This document shows, one piece after another, positions 31,430-36,723 of a stretch of DNA of 64,000 bases. Both the position numbers and the translations under genes were made by a program. The stretch spans positions 372,001-436,000 of the forward strand of contig NZ_VKKZ01000021.1 of the NCBI RefSeq assembly GCF_008271745.1, given 5' to 3'. Each line of letters starts with the position of its first letter. The first letter of the stretch is position 1. This DNA comes from Rufibacter glacialis (GTDB taxonomy: Bacteria; Bacteroidota; Bacteroidia; Cytophagales; Hymenobacteraceae). Below the pieces are notes generated by a model. It was not told the DNA's origin. It worked only from the letters and a program-made list of their open reading frames with translations, and ran no database searches.

Positions 31430-32383
31430 TTACTGGGGCTGGGGAACGGTGGCATACTGGTACGGCTTGCCTATGAGCCGCACCTCAAATGCACTGCTCA
31501 CCCCCTTCAGGTTAATGCGGGCGCAGCCCGGCGCATACGGCGGATGGGGCAACAGCTGGTACGCCCGCTCAGAGATGACAAAGCTGTTGTTCAGGTCTTT
31601 GGTAGCCGCCTGCAGACGGGCCGCCACGTTCACCGGGAAGCCCATCACCGTCAGGTTGTTGTTCAGCCCGATGCCCACGTTCCCGTACACCACCTTGCCC
31701 ACGTGCACGCCAATGCCTACCTCAAAGGTGTGGCTGAAGTACTTGCGCATGTAGGTGTTGTTGAAGATCTTGATGTCTTCCAGGATCTTGATCCCCGCCA
31801 GCACCGCCGACTCCGCCGCCTGCCGGATTTTGGAATCCAGCCCGAAAACGGCGTACAACCCGTCTCCGGCGGTGTCAATGATCTTGCCGTTGTAGAGTTC
31901 TATGGCGTTACGGAAGAGCGTGAAGATCCGGCGCATGATGTGAATGACATCAAAGGGAAGATTGGCCTCAATGAAAGGAGTAAAGTTGCGGATATCTATA
32001 AAAAACAGGGCCAGTTTGCCGCGCCTGCCCATGACCTGGGTAGTATCTTCCTGCTCGCCGTCCAGGAACAGGTAATGATCGGTGTCATCTTTGATGAGCC
32101 GGTGCACCTGCACATCTTCGCCCTTCACGTAGGTCTGGCAGGCCAGCCGCACGTTGTCGGGGAATTTCTTGAGCGCCTTGATGGCCCGTTCATGGTTCTT
32201 GACCTCTGACAGGTGTTCCTGCCCCTCCAGCACCAGAATGCGGCAGGTAGAGCACTGCCCCTTGCCACCACACGCGTTGTAATGCGGAATACCAGCCTCC
32301 AATGAAGCATCCAGTATGGTTTGGTGCTCAGAGATAGGGATCACTTTCTCTCCTTTGAAGTCAATCTGGTACGGCATAGGCAC
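31430..32383 (-). CDS. [2Fe-2S] ferredoxin fused to a class III nucleotide cyclase
   Basis: 317 residues, cytoplasmic. Residues ~5-100 are a ferredoxin domain with Cys38-x5-Cys44-x2-Cys47-x34-Cys82, the spacing of adrenodoxin/Isc-type [2Fe-2S] proteins. Residues ~122-305 are a class III adenylyl/guanylyl cyclase domain: metal-binding Asp130 (FFIDIRNFT) and Asp174 (TAGDGLYAVF), and transition-state residues Asn252 and Arg256 (VNVAARL). The position that holds the adenine-selecting Lys in adenylyl cyclases is Asp170, so substrate choice is unclear. A redox-sensing cyclase is the natural reading. The gene stands alone on the minus strand. Confidence 0.9.
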   Translation of the reverse strand: MPMPYQIDFKGEKVIPISEHQTILDASLEAGIPHYNACGGKGQCSTCRILVLEGQEHLSEVKNHERAIKALKKFPDNVRLACQTYVKGEDVQVHRLIKDDTDHYLFLDGEQEDTTQVMGRRGKLALFFIDIRNFTPFIEANLPFDVIHIMRRIFTLFRNAIELYNGKIIDTAGDGLYAVFGLDSKIRQAAESAVLAGIKILEDIKIFNNTYMRKYFSHTFEVGIGVHVGKVVYGNVGIGLNNNLTVMGFPVNVAARLQAATKDLNNSFVISERAYQLLPHPPYAPGCARINLKGVSSAFEVRLIGKPYQYATVPQPQ

Positions 32384-32424: not shown

Positions 32425-32703
32425 TTAATTTTTTATTAAGTGCTGATATTCTGGGTGTTTCTTTAAAAAAGCAGACATATACGGGCACAAGGGCACCACC
32501 TGCATTCCCTCCTCTGCCAGGTACTGCAACACGTGGGTAGACATGGCGGCGGCCAGTCCCCGCCCTTCCAGCTCCTTGGGCACAATGGTGTGCAGCACGG
32601 TCATCACGTTCTCCTTGACCTTATACTGGATATACGCAGTCTTGCCTTCTACCTCCGTCTCAAACTGGTGGGTGGCAAGGTTGTTTCTGATGCTTGGTTC
32701 CAT
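32425..32703 (-). CDS. Small GNAT-type acetyltransferase (YjdJ family)
   Basis: 92 residues. It matches the short GNAT domain: YIQYKVKENVMTVLHTIVPK, the acetyl-CoA loop PKELEGRGLAAAMSTHVL, and CPYMSAFLKKHPEYQHLI at the end. Such proteins are minimal N-acetyltransferases with unknown substrates, sometimes proposed to bind CoA thioesters. 31 bases separate it from the hydrolase gene upstream, and a dispersed palindrome occupies that gap. Confidence 0.88.
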   Translation of the reverse strand: MEPSIRNNLATHQFETEVEGKTAYIQYKVKENVMTVLHTIVPKELEGRGLAAAMSTHVLQYLAEEGMQVVPLCPYMSAFLKKHPEYQHLIKN

Positions 32704-32734: not shown

Positions 32735-33370
32735 TTACTCCTCAGGGCTGCCCGCCAAGAGGGGGCGGGCCAAATCCAGTTCTTCGGGCGAGATGGTGTG
32801 GGGCCGGCCTTTGTAGATCTTCTTGGTGACCACCGCGCCTTGCGCCTCCATGATCTGGGCGGTTTCCTCTACCCGGCTCACAGGCACGTGCGGGTCTGGG
32901 TCACCGGTAGTGATAAGCACCGGGGTGCCTTCAAAGGTGCCCTTGTAGCGACTGGTAGTCACCTGTGGCCCAATCAGGCCGCCGGTAAAGAGGAAAAGAC
33001 CACCGAACTGCTGGGCTTTGCGGGCGGCGTATTCGGCCGTGAGGCAGGCGCCTTGTGAAAAGCCCAGCAAGTAGATATTCTGGCTGCTGATGCCCTCCTG
33101 GGCAATGGCTTTCACCAGGTCATGCACCTGCGCCAGGGCAGAATCAAGGGCGGGCTGGTTCTGCTCTATGGGGGCCATGAAGCTGTAGGGGTACCAACTG
33201 TGGTTGGTGGCCTGCGGGGCGAACAAGGAGAAGTCCTCTACCGGCAGATGGTCTGCCAGTGACAGGATGCTCTGCGCGGTAGCGCCGCGGCCGTGGATCA
33301 TGATGAGCGCCTTGCCCGTCTCAGACAAGGGTTTGCCCTGCGTAATAACGTGTTTCTGGTGCGTATACAT
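32735..33370 (-). CDS. Phospholipase/carboxylesterase family hydrolase (MhqD-like)
   Basis: 211 residues, alpha/beta hydrolase. Oxyanion region MIHGRGATAQSILSLA near 25, nucleophile Ser in LLGFSQGACLTAEYA near 105, catalytic Asp in TTGDPDPHVPVSRVEE near 158 and His in YKGRPHTISPEEL near 190. The family includes B. subtilis MhqD, an esterase of the quinone-responsive mhq regulon. The neighbouring MhqO-like dioxygenase and FMN reductase support a role in removing electrophiles. Cytoplasmic. Confidence 0.88.
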   Translation of the reverse strand: MYTHQKHVITQGKPLSETGKALIMIHGRGATAQSILSLADHLPVEDFSLFAPQATNHSWYPYSFMAPIEQNQPALDSALAQVHDLVKAIAQEGISSQNIYLLGFSQGACLTAEYAARKAQQFGGLFLFTGGLIGPQVTTSRYKGTFEGTPVLITTGDPDPHVPVSRVEETAQIMEAQGAVVTKKIYKGRPHTISPEELDLARPLLAGSPEE

Positions 33371-33388: not shown

Positions 33389-33937
33389 TTACCCCTGCGC
33401 TGCGCGGATGGCCTGGCTCAGCCACAGGAAATCATTCAGGAATTCATCTAACCGGCCGGCGTAGGCGGTGTCTATCAACTGCCCCTCCTGGAACAGGGTC
33501 TGTACTTTGGGCGTGAGCAGGACATTGGGCAGCACAATCCCTTTCAGGGCAAGGGCGTACTGTTGCAGGCTCTTGGCTGCGTTGATGCCGCCCAGCATTC
33601 CTGAAGACACTCCCACTATCCCAAAAGGCTTATGGGAATACTCTTTGTAGAAGTAGTCCAGAGTGTTTTTCAAGGCCCCGGAGTAACTGCCGTTATATTC
33701 CGGAGACACCAGCAGCAACCCCTCACTTTGGGCAATAGCGGCGCTGGTTTCCTTCATTTTCTCTGAAGGGGTAGGCGTTTTGTCAAAGATGGCTTCCAGC
33801 AAAGGGAAATTCAACTCACGCACGTCCAGCAAATGGACCGTATGGCCTTTCTCTTCCAGCCTCTTCCCTACCTCCAAGGCCACCTGATGCGATTGCCGCT
33901 GCGGGCGGGCACTTCCTGATACAACTACTAGTTTCAT
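33389..33937 (-). CDS. NADPH-dependent FMN reductase
   Basis: 182 residues, flavodoxin-like. The FMN phosphate loop VVSGSARPQRQSHQVA starts at residue 5, and LLLVSPEYNGSYSGALKNTLDYF, a family hallmark, starts near residue 75; GIVGVSSGMLGGINAAKSL follows. Enzymes of this family reduce FMN, quinones, azo dyes or chromate with NAD(P)H. Here it lies 18 bases upstream of the MhqD-like hydrolase gene, consistent with quinone reduction, but the substrate is an inference. Confidence 0.9.
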   Translation of the reverse strand: MKLVVVSGSARPQRQSHQVALEVGKRLEEKGHTVHLLDVRELNFPLLEAIFDKTPTPSEKMKETSAAIAQSEGLLLVSPEYNGSYSGALKNTLDYFYKEYSHKPFGIVGVSSGMLGGINAAKSLQQYALALKGIVLPNVLLTPKVQTLFQEGQLIDTAYAGRLDEFLNDFLWLSQAIRAAQG

Positions 33938-33981: not shown

Positions 33982-34356
33982 TTATTTTCCGGTACCCTCT
34001 TTCAAGGTAATGAAAATAGAACTCCTTACCGCCGGCAACAGGTTTCTGGTGCGGTGCCCTTTGCCGGTGGTGTCTTCCAGCAACAAGATGTCACTGGCCT
34101 TGAACTGCCGTTTCTCCCCCAGCGAGGTCTCTATCTCAATCTCTCCGTCCAGCATCACCAGGTACTGCCGGGCGGGCGCCGTGTGGGCGTCATAGTCATA
34201 GCTGGCCACTACCTTCCGGAAGATGATGCTTTCCACCTCCTCAGGCTCTGAGAGGAAACCAATGTCTCCTTCAGCGCGCAGGGGTTTGGTGATTTCCTCA
34301 AAACGGCTGTCCCCGTTCTCATCGGCGTAGACGCGGGTAATAGTGAACGCTTCCAT
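33982..34356 (-). CDS. Small cupin-fold protein
   Basis: 124 residues. The pattern DYDAHTAPARQYLVMLDGEI, then IETSLGEKRQFKASDILLLE and GKGHRTRNL, is that of a single cupin beta-barrel; the usual metal ligands are incomplete (His96-like only in TGKGHRT and His in DAHTAP). Proteins of this type sit beside electrophile-detoxification genes, as here. Function unknown; likely cytoplasmic. Confidence 0.75.
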   Translation of the reverse strand: MEAFTITRVYADENGDSRFEEITKPLRAEGDIGFLSEPEEVESIIFRKVVASYDYDAHTAPARQYLVMLDGEIEIETSLGEKRQFKASDILLLEDTTGKGHRTRNLLPAVRSSIFITLKEGTGK

Positions 34357-34413: not shown

Positions 34414-35349
34414 TTAGTCTATTTTTGGTAAAACGGCCTCAATATCAGCGCGGCGCGGCTCATACTGCGGCGGCAGCAACAGGCTGGATCCCAGTTGATC
34501 CCAGGGCTCGTCAATCCCGAACCCGGGGTTGTCTGTGGCAATCTCAAACAGCACCCCACCCGGTTCCCGGAAGTAGAGCGAGTAGAAGTAGTTGCGGTCA
34601 ATCTTGTTCGTGATGCTGTGGCCGGCCCGCGACACCTTCCTCTGGAACTCCATAAGGGTTTCCTCGTCTTTCACCCTAAAGGCGATGTGGTGGTTCGTAC
34701 CAGCCCCACCGATCCCGCGGGCTTCGTTGGGCAGTTCCACCAGGTCAATGATGGCGGCGTGCTCCACCGCATCGGTGATGTAGCGGTAGCGGTTGCCGCT
34801 TTTCTCCAGCAGCGCGTAGCCCAGGATGTCAGTGAGGATGGCGGCGGTGGGGTTGATGTTTTGCAAGGTCAAGGTGACACTATGGAAGCCTTTGGGGGCC
34901 ACGTTGGCGCTCACCTCCTCGGTTTGCCAGGCCACCCGGTTATCTGGGTTCTGGGGCACCACCAGTTCCAGTTTGAGGCCGTCAGGGTCCAGGAACGTGA
35001 GGTACTTCTCCCCGAACTTCTCTGAGGGCTTGTTGTAGAGGATGTTGTGCTTCTCAAAACGGTCTATCCAGAAATCAAAGCTGCCTTCAGGCACTGAGTA
35101 GCCAATGTTGGTGGCCATGCCCGTGCCGGCGCTGCCCCGGCGGGCGCCTTCGTAGGGAAAGAAGGTCAGGATGTTACCGGCACTGCCGCGCTCATCACCG
35201 TAGTACAGGTGGTAGGTACCGGGGTCGTCAAAATTGACGGTCTTTTTGAGCAGGCGCAGGCCCAATACCTTGGTATAGAAGTCCACGTTCTTCTTGGCCT
35301 GATCAGCAATAGCCGTGATGTGGTGCAGGCCTAAAATTCTGTTTTCCAT
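34414..35349 (-). CDS. Ring-cleaving dioxygenase, VOC/glyoxalase family (MhqO-like)
   Basis: 311 residues made of two glyoxalase/VOC modules. Metal ligands are likely His9/His10 (LGLHHITAIA), His near 220 (GTNHHIAFRV) and Glu near 270 (GGVLFEIATD), the His-His-Glu set of type I extradiol dioxygenases. DNPGFGIDEPWDQLGSSLLLPP at the end is typical of the MhqO/LinE-like group acting on hydroquinones. Its neighbours (MhqD-like esterase, FMN reductase, pirin) form the same functional set as the B. subtilis quinone regulon. Substrate not proven. Confidence 0.88.
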   Translation of the reverse strand: MENRILGLHHITAIADQAKKNVDFYTKVLGLRLLKKTVNFDDPGTYHLYYGDERGSAGNILTFFPYEGARRGSAGTGMATNIGYSVPEGSFDFWIDRFEKHNILYNKPSEKFGEKYLTFLDPDGLKLELVVPQNPDNRVAWQTEEVSANVAPKGFHSVTLTLQNINPTAAILTDILGYALLEKSGNRYRYITDAVEHAAIIDLVELPNEARGIGGAGTNHHIAFRVKDEETLMEFQRKVSRAGHSITNKIDRNYFYSLYFREPGGVLFEIATDNPGFGIDEPWDQLGSSLLLPPQYEPRRADIEAVLPKID

Positions 35350-35358
35350 GGTTTCTGG

Positions 35359-36069
35359 TTAATGGTTGATAGGCACCTCAATGAGGAGGAATCTGCTATC
35401 GGTTGAAAAAGTAAAGTCTAACTGATCTGTCTCCCAAATGCCCAGGCCTTCGCGGTGGTCTACCGGCTGGCCGTTCACTTCTAAAGAACCGCTGATGTTG
35501 AAGACGAATACGCCTTTGTTCATCGGGTTGAAACGGTACGTCACCGACTGGCCTTGCTCAAAATACCCCAGCGAGAGCTTTGCGTTCTGGTTGATCCAGC
35601 AATGGTTCTGGCCTTCCTCGTTGCTCACAATGGTCACCAGCTGGTTTACGCGTTTCTCCTCGGGGAAAAAGCGGCGCTGGTACCGGGGCGTGACGTTCTG
35701 CAGCTTGGGCTCAATCCAGATCTGCAGGAAATGGACGTTGTCCTGCCCCACGTTATGCTCTTCGTGGCGCAGGCCGCTGCCCGCGCTCATGACCTGCACC
35801 CAGTCTTTGTGCACGGTCTCTTTGTAGCCCAGAGAATCCAAGTGGCTCATGGAGCCGGCCAGCATGACTGAGATGATCTCCATGTTGGCGTGCGCATGGA
35901 GGCCGAAGCCGTTTTCAGGCTGCACCACATCATCATTGAACACCCGCAGCAACCCAAAGCCTGCCCGTACCGGGTTATAGTGGCCGGAGAAACTGAACAC
36001 GAAGTTGCTTTTCAGCCAGCCTATATCTTTCAATCCTCTCTGTTCCAGGGGATATCGCTCAAATTGCAT
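35359..36069 (-). CDS. Pirin family protein (probable quercetin 2,3-dioxygenase type)
   Basis: 236 residues, bicupin. The N-terminal cupin has the metal motif GFGLHAHANMEIISVMLAG with His58, His60 and later His102/Glu104 in GSGLRHEEHN. The C-terminal cupin is shorter (GVFVFNISGSLEVNGQPVD). Members of this short YhhW-like group cleave flavonols such as quercetin in vitro; physiological roles are unclear. It lies ten bases upstream of the dioxygenase gene and belongs to the same minus-strand cluster. Confidence 0.9.
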   Translation of the reverse strand: MQFERYPLEQRGLKDIGWLKSNFVFSFSGHYNPVRAGFGLLRVFNDDVVQPENGFGLHAHANMEIISVMLAGSMSHLDSLGYKETVHKDWVQVMSAGSGLRHEEHNVGQDNVHFLQIWIEPKLQNVTPRYQRRFFPEEKRVNQLVTIVSNEEGQNHCWINQNAKLSLGYFEQGQSVTYRFNPMNKGVFVFNISGSLEVNGQPVDHREGLGIWETDQLDFTFSTDSRFLLIEVPINH

Positions 36070-36186: not shown

Positions 36187-36723
36187 TTAGGACTGCTTCA
36201 CCAACTGGATCTCCGCGTGCAGCCTGATGTCATCGCTGACCACCACGCTTCCCGCCTCAGTCACGGCATTCCAGGTAAGGCCAAACTCCTTGCGGCTGAT
36301 CTTCCCGGACACAGTGAAACCGGCTTTGGTCTGACCGTACGGGTCTACCACAATGCCCCCGAACTCTACTTTAACCGTCACGGGCTTAGAAACGCCTTTG
36401 ATGGAAAGGGTGCCGTGCAACTGGTACTCCTCCCCGCCCAGGTGCTCATAGTCGGTGCCTTCAAACCGGATCTCCCCGTAGTTTTCGGCATCAAAGAAAT
36501 CAGCTGATTTCAAGTGCGTGTCGCGCTGCTCATTGTTGGTGCTGATAGAATGCACATCGGCGGTGAACACCACGCTGTTGGCTTTGGTGAACTGCTCATC
36601 CTGGGTTTCCGCCTCTACCTGGAACCGCTGAAAGTATCCGGTCACGGTGGTGATCATCAAGTGCTTTACTTTGAACTGAACTTCTGAGTGCATTGGGTCC
36701 AATACCCATTTTGTAGTTTCCAT
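36187..36723 (-). CDS. YceI family protein, cytoplasmic form
   Basis: 178 residues without a signal peptide. YceI lipocalin-like barrel: WVLDPMHSEVQFKVKHLMI at the start, SADFFDAENYGEIRFEG near 90, LHGTLSIKGVSKPVTVKVEF near 115, and ISRKEFGLTWNAVTEAG near 140. The family binds polyprenoids or amphiphilic molecules. It is the first gene of the six-gene minus-strand cluster; a 27-bp near-perfect palindrome covers its likely promoter. Confidence 0.9.
   Translation of the reverse strand: METTKWVLDPMHSEVQFKVKHLMITTVTGYFQRFQVEAETQDEQFTKANSVVFTADVHSISTNNEQRDTHLKSADFFDAENYGEIRFEGTDYEHLGGEEYQLHGTLSIKGVSKPVTVKVEFGGIVVDPYGQTKAGFTVSGKISRKEFGLTWNAVTEAGSVVVSDDIRLHAEIQLVKQS

Follow-up and report, generated by a model that had tools for sequence, protein, structure and literature searches.

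Fusions of a ferredoxin domain to a class III nucleotide cyclase are already known, and the proteobacterial examples are membrane-bound. The accessible text of PMC4821796 describes a cluster of 30 class IIIb cyclases from alpha- and betaproteobacteria in which the ferredoxin is located between a 6TM anchor and the catalytic domain. This anchor is cytochrome-b-like and predicted to hold two hemes (PMC4821796, same sections). Proteobacterial Fer2-cyclases obtained here from plasmid records comprise 546-578 aa, and the five of nine that were scanned contain one to five TM-like windows before Fer2. The MhqO/MhqD-type operons of B. subtilis serve quinone detoxification. S. meliloti CyaC, a 6TM diheme cyclase, is reported to respond to the quinone redox state via its diheme anchor (PMC10463352, accessible part). 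The base-selecting residues of the Synechocystis guanylyl cyclase Cya2 are an E-G pair (PMC4215837, accessible part). The literature passages and listings searched contained no demonstration that a ferredoxin domain gates a class III cyclase, and few bacterial guanylyl cyclases were well studied. Among the open-licence matches listed, judged by titles and the first lines of abstracts, no soluble ferredoxin-cyclase of Bacteroidota was found.

The window, a stretch of 64,000 nucleotides, is part of the 5.3 Mb genome of Rufibacter glacialis. As judged from its sequence, one of its genes encodes a soluble ferredoxin-class III cyclase with intact catalytic residues. New are a soluble clade with an altered base pocket and its quinone-detoxification context. 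The gene and its domains are:

31430..32377, minus strand: Fer2-class III cyclase fusion, 315 aa from ATG
31430..32383, minus strand: the same ORF from an alternative GTG start at 32383, 317 aa
32090..32371, minus strand: adrenodoxin-type [2Fe-2S] domain, residues 3-96 (ATG), by Pfam Fer2 and an own HMM
31469..32023, minus strand: class III cyclase catalytic domain (Guanylate_cyc), residues 119-303 (ATG)

Residues are counted from the ATG, which gives numbers lower by 2 than the GTG numbering of the original prediction. Pfam places Fer2 at residues 13-87 (E 8.1e-12) and Guanylate_cyc at residues 120-280 (E 1.3e-20), both over the curated cut-offs. The four cluster cysteines Cys36, Cys42, Cys45 and Cys80 (Cys38/44/47/82 in GTG numbering) are in place, and every one of the 40 clade proteins whose Fer2 domain is complete, among them that of the window, keeps them. 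Thus, the claim that an adrenodoxin-type [2Fe-2S] site is joined to a class III cyclase was correct. The same applies to the claim that both metal Asp and the Asn/Arg pair are intact: Asp128 and Asp172 (GTG: 130 and 174) as well as the transition-state residues Asn250 and Arg254 (GTG: Asn252 and Arg256) show no variation across the 52 clade members aligned. Asp168, which occupies the Lys position, Tyr175 and Thr243 complete the key residues of the cyclase domain. Fifteen relatives from the same genus or family match almost over the full length with 60-77% identity, so the fusion is far beyond chance. The structure predicted for the protein (mean pLDDT 86.8, pTM 0.68) resembles that of two cyclases: S. 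platensis CyaC, which is an adenylyl cyclase (1wc1; Z 25.3, rmsd 2.2 over 188 aligned residues), and Cya2, a guanylyl cyclase (2w01; Z 23.7, rmsd 2.2 over 189 aligned residues).

As in the membrane-bound cyclases (PMC4821796, cluster 1, accessible part), Fer2 directly precedes a class IIIb cyclase domain, and the plasmid-borne members sampled join the window clade in the tree (97/95). In contrast to them, the window protein is predicted to be soluble and has Asp instead of Lys and, at +3, Tyr instead of Met. TM-like segments were found neither in this protein nor in 40 of 41 clade members scanned; the window protein has, therefore, no diheme anchor. With S. meliloti CyaC, which was compared by description and stands outside the tree, it has a quinone/redox theme in common, but there redox sensing is ascribed to the hemes and not to a ferredoxin (PMC10463352, accessible part).

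The cyclase gene is the last of eight genes on the same strand, and the run starts with a gene for a YceI-like protein. Upstream of the cyclase, it comprises:

36187..36723, minus strand: YceI-like protein (Pfam YceI, 1.4e-45)
35359..36069, minus strand: pirin/quercetinase (Pfam Pirin, Pirin_C_2)
34414..35349, minus strand: MhqO-type ring-cleaving dioxygenase (PDB 3oaj, MhqO, 4.9e-86, residues 3-306; Pfam Glyoxalase)
33982..34356, minus strand: 124-aa conserved protein, present in 15 of 49 loci
33389..33937, minus strand: NADPH-dependent FMN reductase family flavoprotein, probable quinone reductase (Pfam FMN_red, 5.6e-35)
32735..33370, minus strand: phospholipase/carboxylesterase with a putative MhqD-like role (Pfam Abhydrolase_2; PDB 4h0c, 4.8e-77)
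32425..32703, minus strand: GNAT (Pfam Acetyltransf_CG), separated by 47 bp from the ATG of the cyclase that follows

From YceI to the cyclase ATG, the gaps amount to 117, 9, 57, 44, 18, 31 and 47 bp. The run is a quinone-detoxification cluster, in which the esterase would act like MhqD and the flavoprotein would reduce quinones. The carboxylesterase matches NCBIfam MhqD with only 8.5e-6, far under the cut-off, and the 124-aa protein matches neither Pfam nor NCBIfam. Like the MhqO/MhqD operons of B. subtilis, the run combines MhqO, a carboxylesterase and an FMN_red-family protein. Unlike them, it additionally comprises YceI, pirin, GNAT and a nucleotide cyclase. Promoter-like sites (1 vs 3.3 in shuffles) and terminator-like sites (7 vs 6.6) are no more frequent than expected by chance, and Pfam revealed no cNMP-receptor gene within the run.

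In the same genus, MhqO is located within 2.1 kb of the cyclase in 11 of 11 cyclase-bearing genomes, yet it is still there in 4 of 5 genomes that lack the cyclase. This means, the cyclase is an optional add-on to the quinone-detoxification cluster. Across 49 loci (the window and 48 others, with flanks of up to 8 kb to either side), YceI was found in 24, MhqO and FMN_red in 21 each, and esterase and GNAT in 16 each. Of 26 loci within Hymenobacteraceae, 15 have GNAT at most 70 bp upstream and 22 have YceI somewhere in the 8 kb flanks. These numbers are based on our own ORF calls, by which the cyclase ORF itself was overlooked in 2 of 49 loci. Since most loci belong to Hymenobacteraceae and share ancestry, these counts do not represent independent events. 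YceI lies within 5 kb of the cyclase in at least 25 of the 41 family genomes that match the cyclase profile, and it is widespread in the family (109 of 120 genomes). Of the 23 loci outside Hymenobacteraceae, only a few share this context, two with YceI and one with FMN_red.

The varied gene placements say more than counts over kin loci. FMN_red-family genes of differing subtype adjoin the cyclase on either strand (L043, L045, L055-L057, L079, L080). YceI adjoins it in L061 and L064 and is one gene away in L078; in genome G528, 1.2 kb separate it from a distant member of the family. On a plasmid of Azospirillum sp. TSH58 (L110, 1813-4936), a Crp/Fnr regulator, whose cNMP motif is canonical by eye, stands between YceI and a membrane Fer2-cyclase in which Ala takes the place of Lys. 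A different context was observed in three MAGs (L066, L067, L071), where the Fer2-cyclase is found near genes for ArsR, a methyltransferase, a LMW phosphatase-like protein and a metal exporter. With these genes assigned by Pfam (L066) or by clustering (L067, L071), the context is of the arsenic type rather than of the quinone type.

We propose that the gene encodes a soluble redox/quinone-stress cyclase that is co-transcribed with the quinone run and produces probably not cAMP but most likely cGMP. To this reading we assign a probability of about 0.4. The [2Fe-2S] domain would bind a cluster and act as redox input to a cyclase domain that works as a homodimer. Oxidation or reduction of the cluster would alter cyclase activity, with quinones or their reductases as the most plausible drivers. 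If the cyclase gene is co-transcribed with the quinone-detoxification run, the enzyme would be made upon quinone stress, and its physiological role would be to relay the redox state as a 3',5'-cyclic mononucleotide. The ferredoxin fusion, the related architecture that senses quinones and the co-location with quinone enzymes all fit, by analogy, a redox- or quinone-responsive cyclase. The original prediction had likewise suggested a possible redox switch and cGMP or another cyclic nucleotide as product, and its caution about the output was justified; the quinone run, the proteobacterial relatives and the conserved Tyr described below were not part of it. Linkage to redox enzymes and intact ferredoxin cysteines would also suit a protein that serves mainly as electron carrier or partner for the quinone reductase and the dioxygenase of the run, with a weak or regulatory cyclase domain. 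We regard this as very improbable: all 52 clade members, including nine without a ferredoxin, retain both metal Asp as well as the Asn and the Arg.

The choice of the product depends on the base-selecting pocket. In the HMMER alignment, Asp168 (Asp170 in GTG numbering) is opposite the Lys of OaPAC, which confirms that the adenine-selecting Lys is replaced in the window protein. The clade has 24 Asp and 28 Glu at this position. By comparison, of 28 other cyclases aligned alongside, 18 have Lys, five Asp, four Gln and one Ala. Lys in most homologues had been named as a finding that would speak against the original prediction. This pattern was seen in the distant proteobacterial Fer2-cyclases (Lys in 7 of 9, Gln and Ala in one each), but not in the close clade (0 of 52). 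Since both other PF00211 cyclases of the R. glacialis genome keep Lys (with Asp in L001 and Thr in L002 as second residue), the acidic residue is not general among the cyclases of this organism.

In guanylyl cyclases, Glu replaces Lys, while the Asp gives way to C, S, T, H, A or G (PMC4215837, accessible part). At the second specificity position 243, where the window protein has Thr, the 52 clade members carry T (31), S (11), I (4), V (3), A (2) or M (1), i.e. T, S or A in 44 and M, V or I in 8; the latter three are absent from the list for guanylyl cyclases and speak against a cGMP product. Under the rule given in the accessible part of PMC4215837, those clade members that combine Glu with T, S or A look like guanylyl cyclases. 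The Asp of the window protein is one carbon shorter than the Glu of characterised guanylyl cyclases. With Cya2, the window protein shares the class III fold and a carboxylate in place of Lys; it differs by Asp with Thr and by its N-terminal ferredoxin domain. The aligned range on Cya2 begins with residue 114 = 434, and a gap-free offset of 320 would place Asp168 on residue 488, which we take to be the specificity Glu (Glu488). Because Lys is replaced by Asp or Glu across the clade, the enzyme probably does not make cAMP, and cGMP is its most likely product; residues and structural model make cGMP the leading guess, not a result.

Alternatively, the acidic residue might be tolerated, and a redox-regulated adenylyl cyclase might produce cAMP as usual for class IIIb. 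The window protein groups with Lys-bearing proteobacterial Fer2-cyclases, photoactivated adenylyl cyclases rank first among its sequence matches in the PDB, and the Lys position, with Q, A and D in other Fer2-cyclases, may be loosely constrained. Thr at the second position occurs in adenylyl cyclases, too (PMC4215837, accessible part), and L002 of the same genome has Lys with Thr. Nevertheless, we consider cAMP doubtful, as Asp or Glu in 52 of 52 members together with an invariant Tyr seems selected. This Tyr is located at position 175, three residues past the second metal Asp, and is present in all 52 clade members, whereas the 28 other cyclases have mostly Met (19) and rarely Tyr (2). From the alignment, the combination of Asp/Glu and Tyr looks selected rather than the result of drift. 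The named-genome scan, seeded with the peptides GDGLYAVF and FF[IL]DIR[ND]F, favours Tyr-bearing members, and the two Tyr-bearing other cyclases (L091, L095) likewise came from it. However, Tyr is also invariant in 17 of 17 sequences tied to a separate protein search and occurs in L118, L120 and L121, all from the profile search. The Asp/Glu position falls in neither seed pattern.

The same Tyr bears on a further explanation, a Pycsar-like enzyme that makes a cyclic pyrimidine (cUMP or cCMP) for a receptor of the PycTM type or a similar one. In AnPycC, the residues named for UTP recognition include F109, three positions past the second catalytic Asp (PMC11224242, accessible part), and the invariant Tyr of the clade occupies this +3 place. 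PycC subclades differ at their pyrimidine-selecting residues. Only the +3 aromatic residue resembles AnPycC and is mostly unlike other cyclases; the Phe two residues before the first metal Asp is common to 27 of the 28 other cyclases, and the Arg, Gln and Lys residues given for EaPycC and AnPycC are missing. In Hufsiella, where the ORFs overlap, and in Cesiribacter, an HD-PycTM gene is directly downstream of the Fer2-cyclase, which is a lead toward a receptor and a pyrimidine product. Genes of the HD-PycTM type are widespread, with homologues in 160 of 395 genomes at E <= 1e-20, and none of 30 HD-PycTM loci fetched from these 160 genomes had a cyclase-profile match in the 1.5 kb flanks, a count that could miss genes at locus ends. 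Thus, although the two neighbourhoods stand out against 0 of 30, the link is confined to two loci and kept as a lead only. In the run of the window there is no PycTM gene, and the two PF18967 matches of the genome are on other contigs. Taken together, we judge a pyrimidine product quite unlikely.

PADLOC models were also tried as evidence for membership in Pycsar and rejected as such. Like PycC cyclases, the window protein has a class III catalytic core, and the PADLOC PycC models match it. Its best hit, 53.5 bits, is no better than those of ordinary cyclases: the Lys-bearing cyclases of the genome, for which only the matched domain pieces were compared, reach 59.7 and 82.8 bits, so the models do not discriminate, and no effector gene adjoins the window cyclase. 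A broader proposal would be that a ferredoxin-gated clade with an altered pocket (Asp/Glu plus Tyr) turns quinone or redox stress into cGMP or cUMP/cCMP, with HD-PycTM receptors in at least some lineages. We consider it unlikely; if true, it would represent a housekeeping, non-phage use of Pycsar-like signalling. In the phage collection searched at E <= 1e-5, only two records of one Pelagibacter phage matched, with the cyclase domain alone.

Polyphosphate kinase genes were observed near several of these loci. In L075 (7983-12277) and L064 (8001-12336), the Fer2-cyclase is followed by HD-PycTM, a member of the Pycsar-effector family, and then by polyphosphate kinase; in L068 (1414-4633), polyphosphate kinase comes directly after the Fer2-cyclase. 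R. glacialis itself encodes on contig C25 (L128; 4413-5564, 5650-6882, 12424-14556) a DUF2652-SRPBCC protein with a weak cyclase-profile match (5e-7), convergent to an HD-PycTM gene, and a polyphosphate kinase 5.5 kb beyond.

Candidate receptors were sought in the genome as well. The canonical phosphate-binding motif of cNMP-binding proteins is well known and was the basis of all by-eye calls. Among seven cNMP_binding matches, only L035 has it. On contig C1, a gene (L130, 4469-4915, minus strand) encodes a cNMP-binding protein that stands alone, comprises about 149 aa and has this motif. About 3.7 kb away, with one large ORF between, lies a large class IIIa adenylyl cyclase gene (L130, 8595-11714, plus strand). 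Both might form a cAMP pair; the canonical-motif protein is encoded near this class IIIa gene and not near the Fer2-cyclase. The general expectation that Bacteroidota seldom have cAMP circuits needs qualification for R. glacialis, which has two other PF00211 cyclases with canonical adenylyl residues and one short cNMP-binding protein that is canonical by eye. Crp/Fnr-type proteins near nine loci lack, by eye, the canonical cNMP motif and were set aside.

According to the named-genome scan, which recovered the named relatives of this family, and to whole-genome searches, Hymenobacteraceae are the main home of soluble Fer2-cyclases. A cyclase match at E <= 1e-30 was obtained in 41 of 120 family genomes, R. 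glacialis included; in 8 of these, all from a single other genus, the match is only a distant one, and 2 have broken or partial frames. At E <= 1e-40, 7 of 395 genomes of a phylum sample matched, R. glacialis and L118 to L123. L119 represents a different Fer2 subfamily, and L120 and L121 have no Fer2. L122 (G174) and L123 (G394) are Fer2-cyclase-globin triple fusions, with the globin recognised by Pfam in L122 and by eye in L123. They share Fer2 and cyclase with the window protein and belong to the same broad clade, but have a C-terminal globin, and Gln replaces the Lys. A Fer2-cyclase was further detected in isolated MAGs, one labelled Ignavibacterium, two Opitutales and one Polyangia.

The tree was built from 67 of 80 cyclase domains, after removal of 13 near-duplicates or cut rows. 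The rows nearest to the window cyclase come from Rufibacter and Sabulibacter (Hymenobacteraceae, Bacteroidota). One branch (97/95) separates 44 rows with and 9 rows without Fer2 from 14 other cyclases. The Fer2 label needs 5 changes, which is consistent with one fusion and four ferredoxin losses. As the root is a midpoint, this is a reading and not a proof. Ferredoxin loss with retention of the cyclase, as read from the tree, shows that the cyclase can persist without the ferredoxin. Under the one-fusion reading, the four lineages without ferredoxin kept the acidic residue, so the cluster would be dispensable for the role of the cyclase there. Since the enzymes of the clade are small and soluble, have natural relatives without ferredoxin as well as Lys-bearing cousins, and are encoded in a neighbourhood that hints at the stimulus, redox gate and base selection are both directly testable.

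The family counts exclude L088 and L090, which have broken or short frames, and other far matches of the named-genome scan, save six that were used as other cyclases. L073 (in-frame stop in Fer2) and L081 (cut at a contig end) are in the cyclase counts but outside the 40 complete Fer2 domains. In places, the Fer2-cyclase gene decays (L088, G501, G463, L073). Broken or partial copies were found in Pontibacter lucknowensis (L088, 8001-9000) and in two other genomes of the same family (G501:C8, G463:C4). In Rhodocytophaga aerolata (L073, 8001-8912), a single in-frame TAA interrupts Fer2 in an otherwise conserved gene, and the same genome holds two more relatives, L079 and L087.
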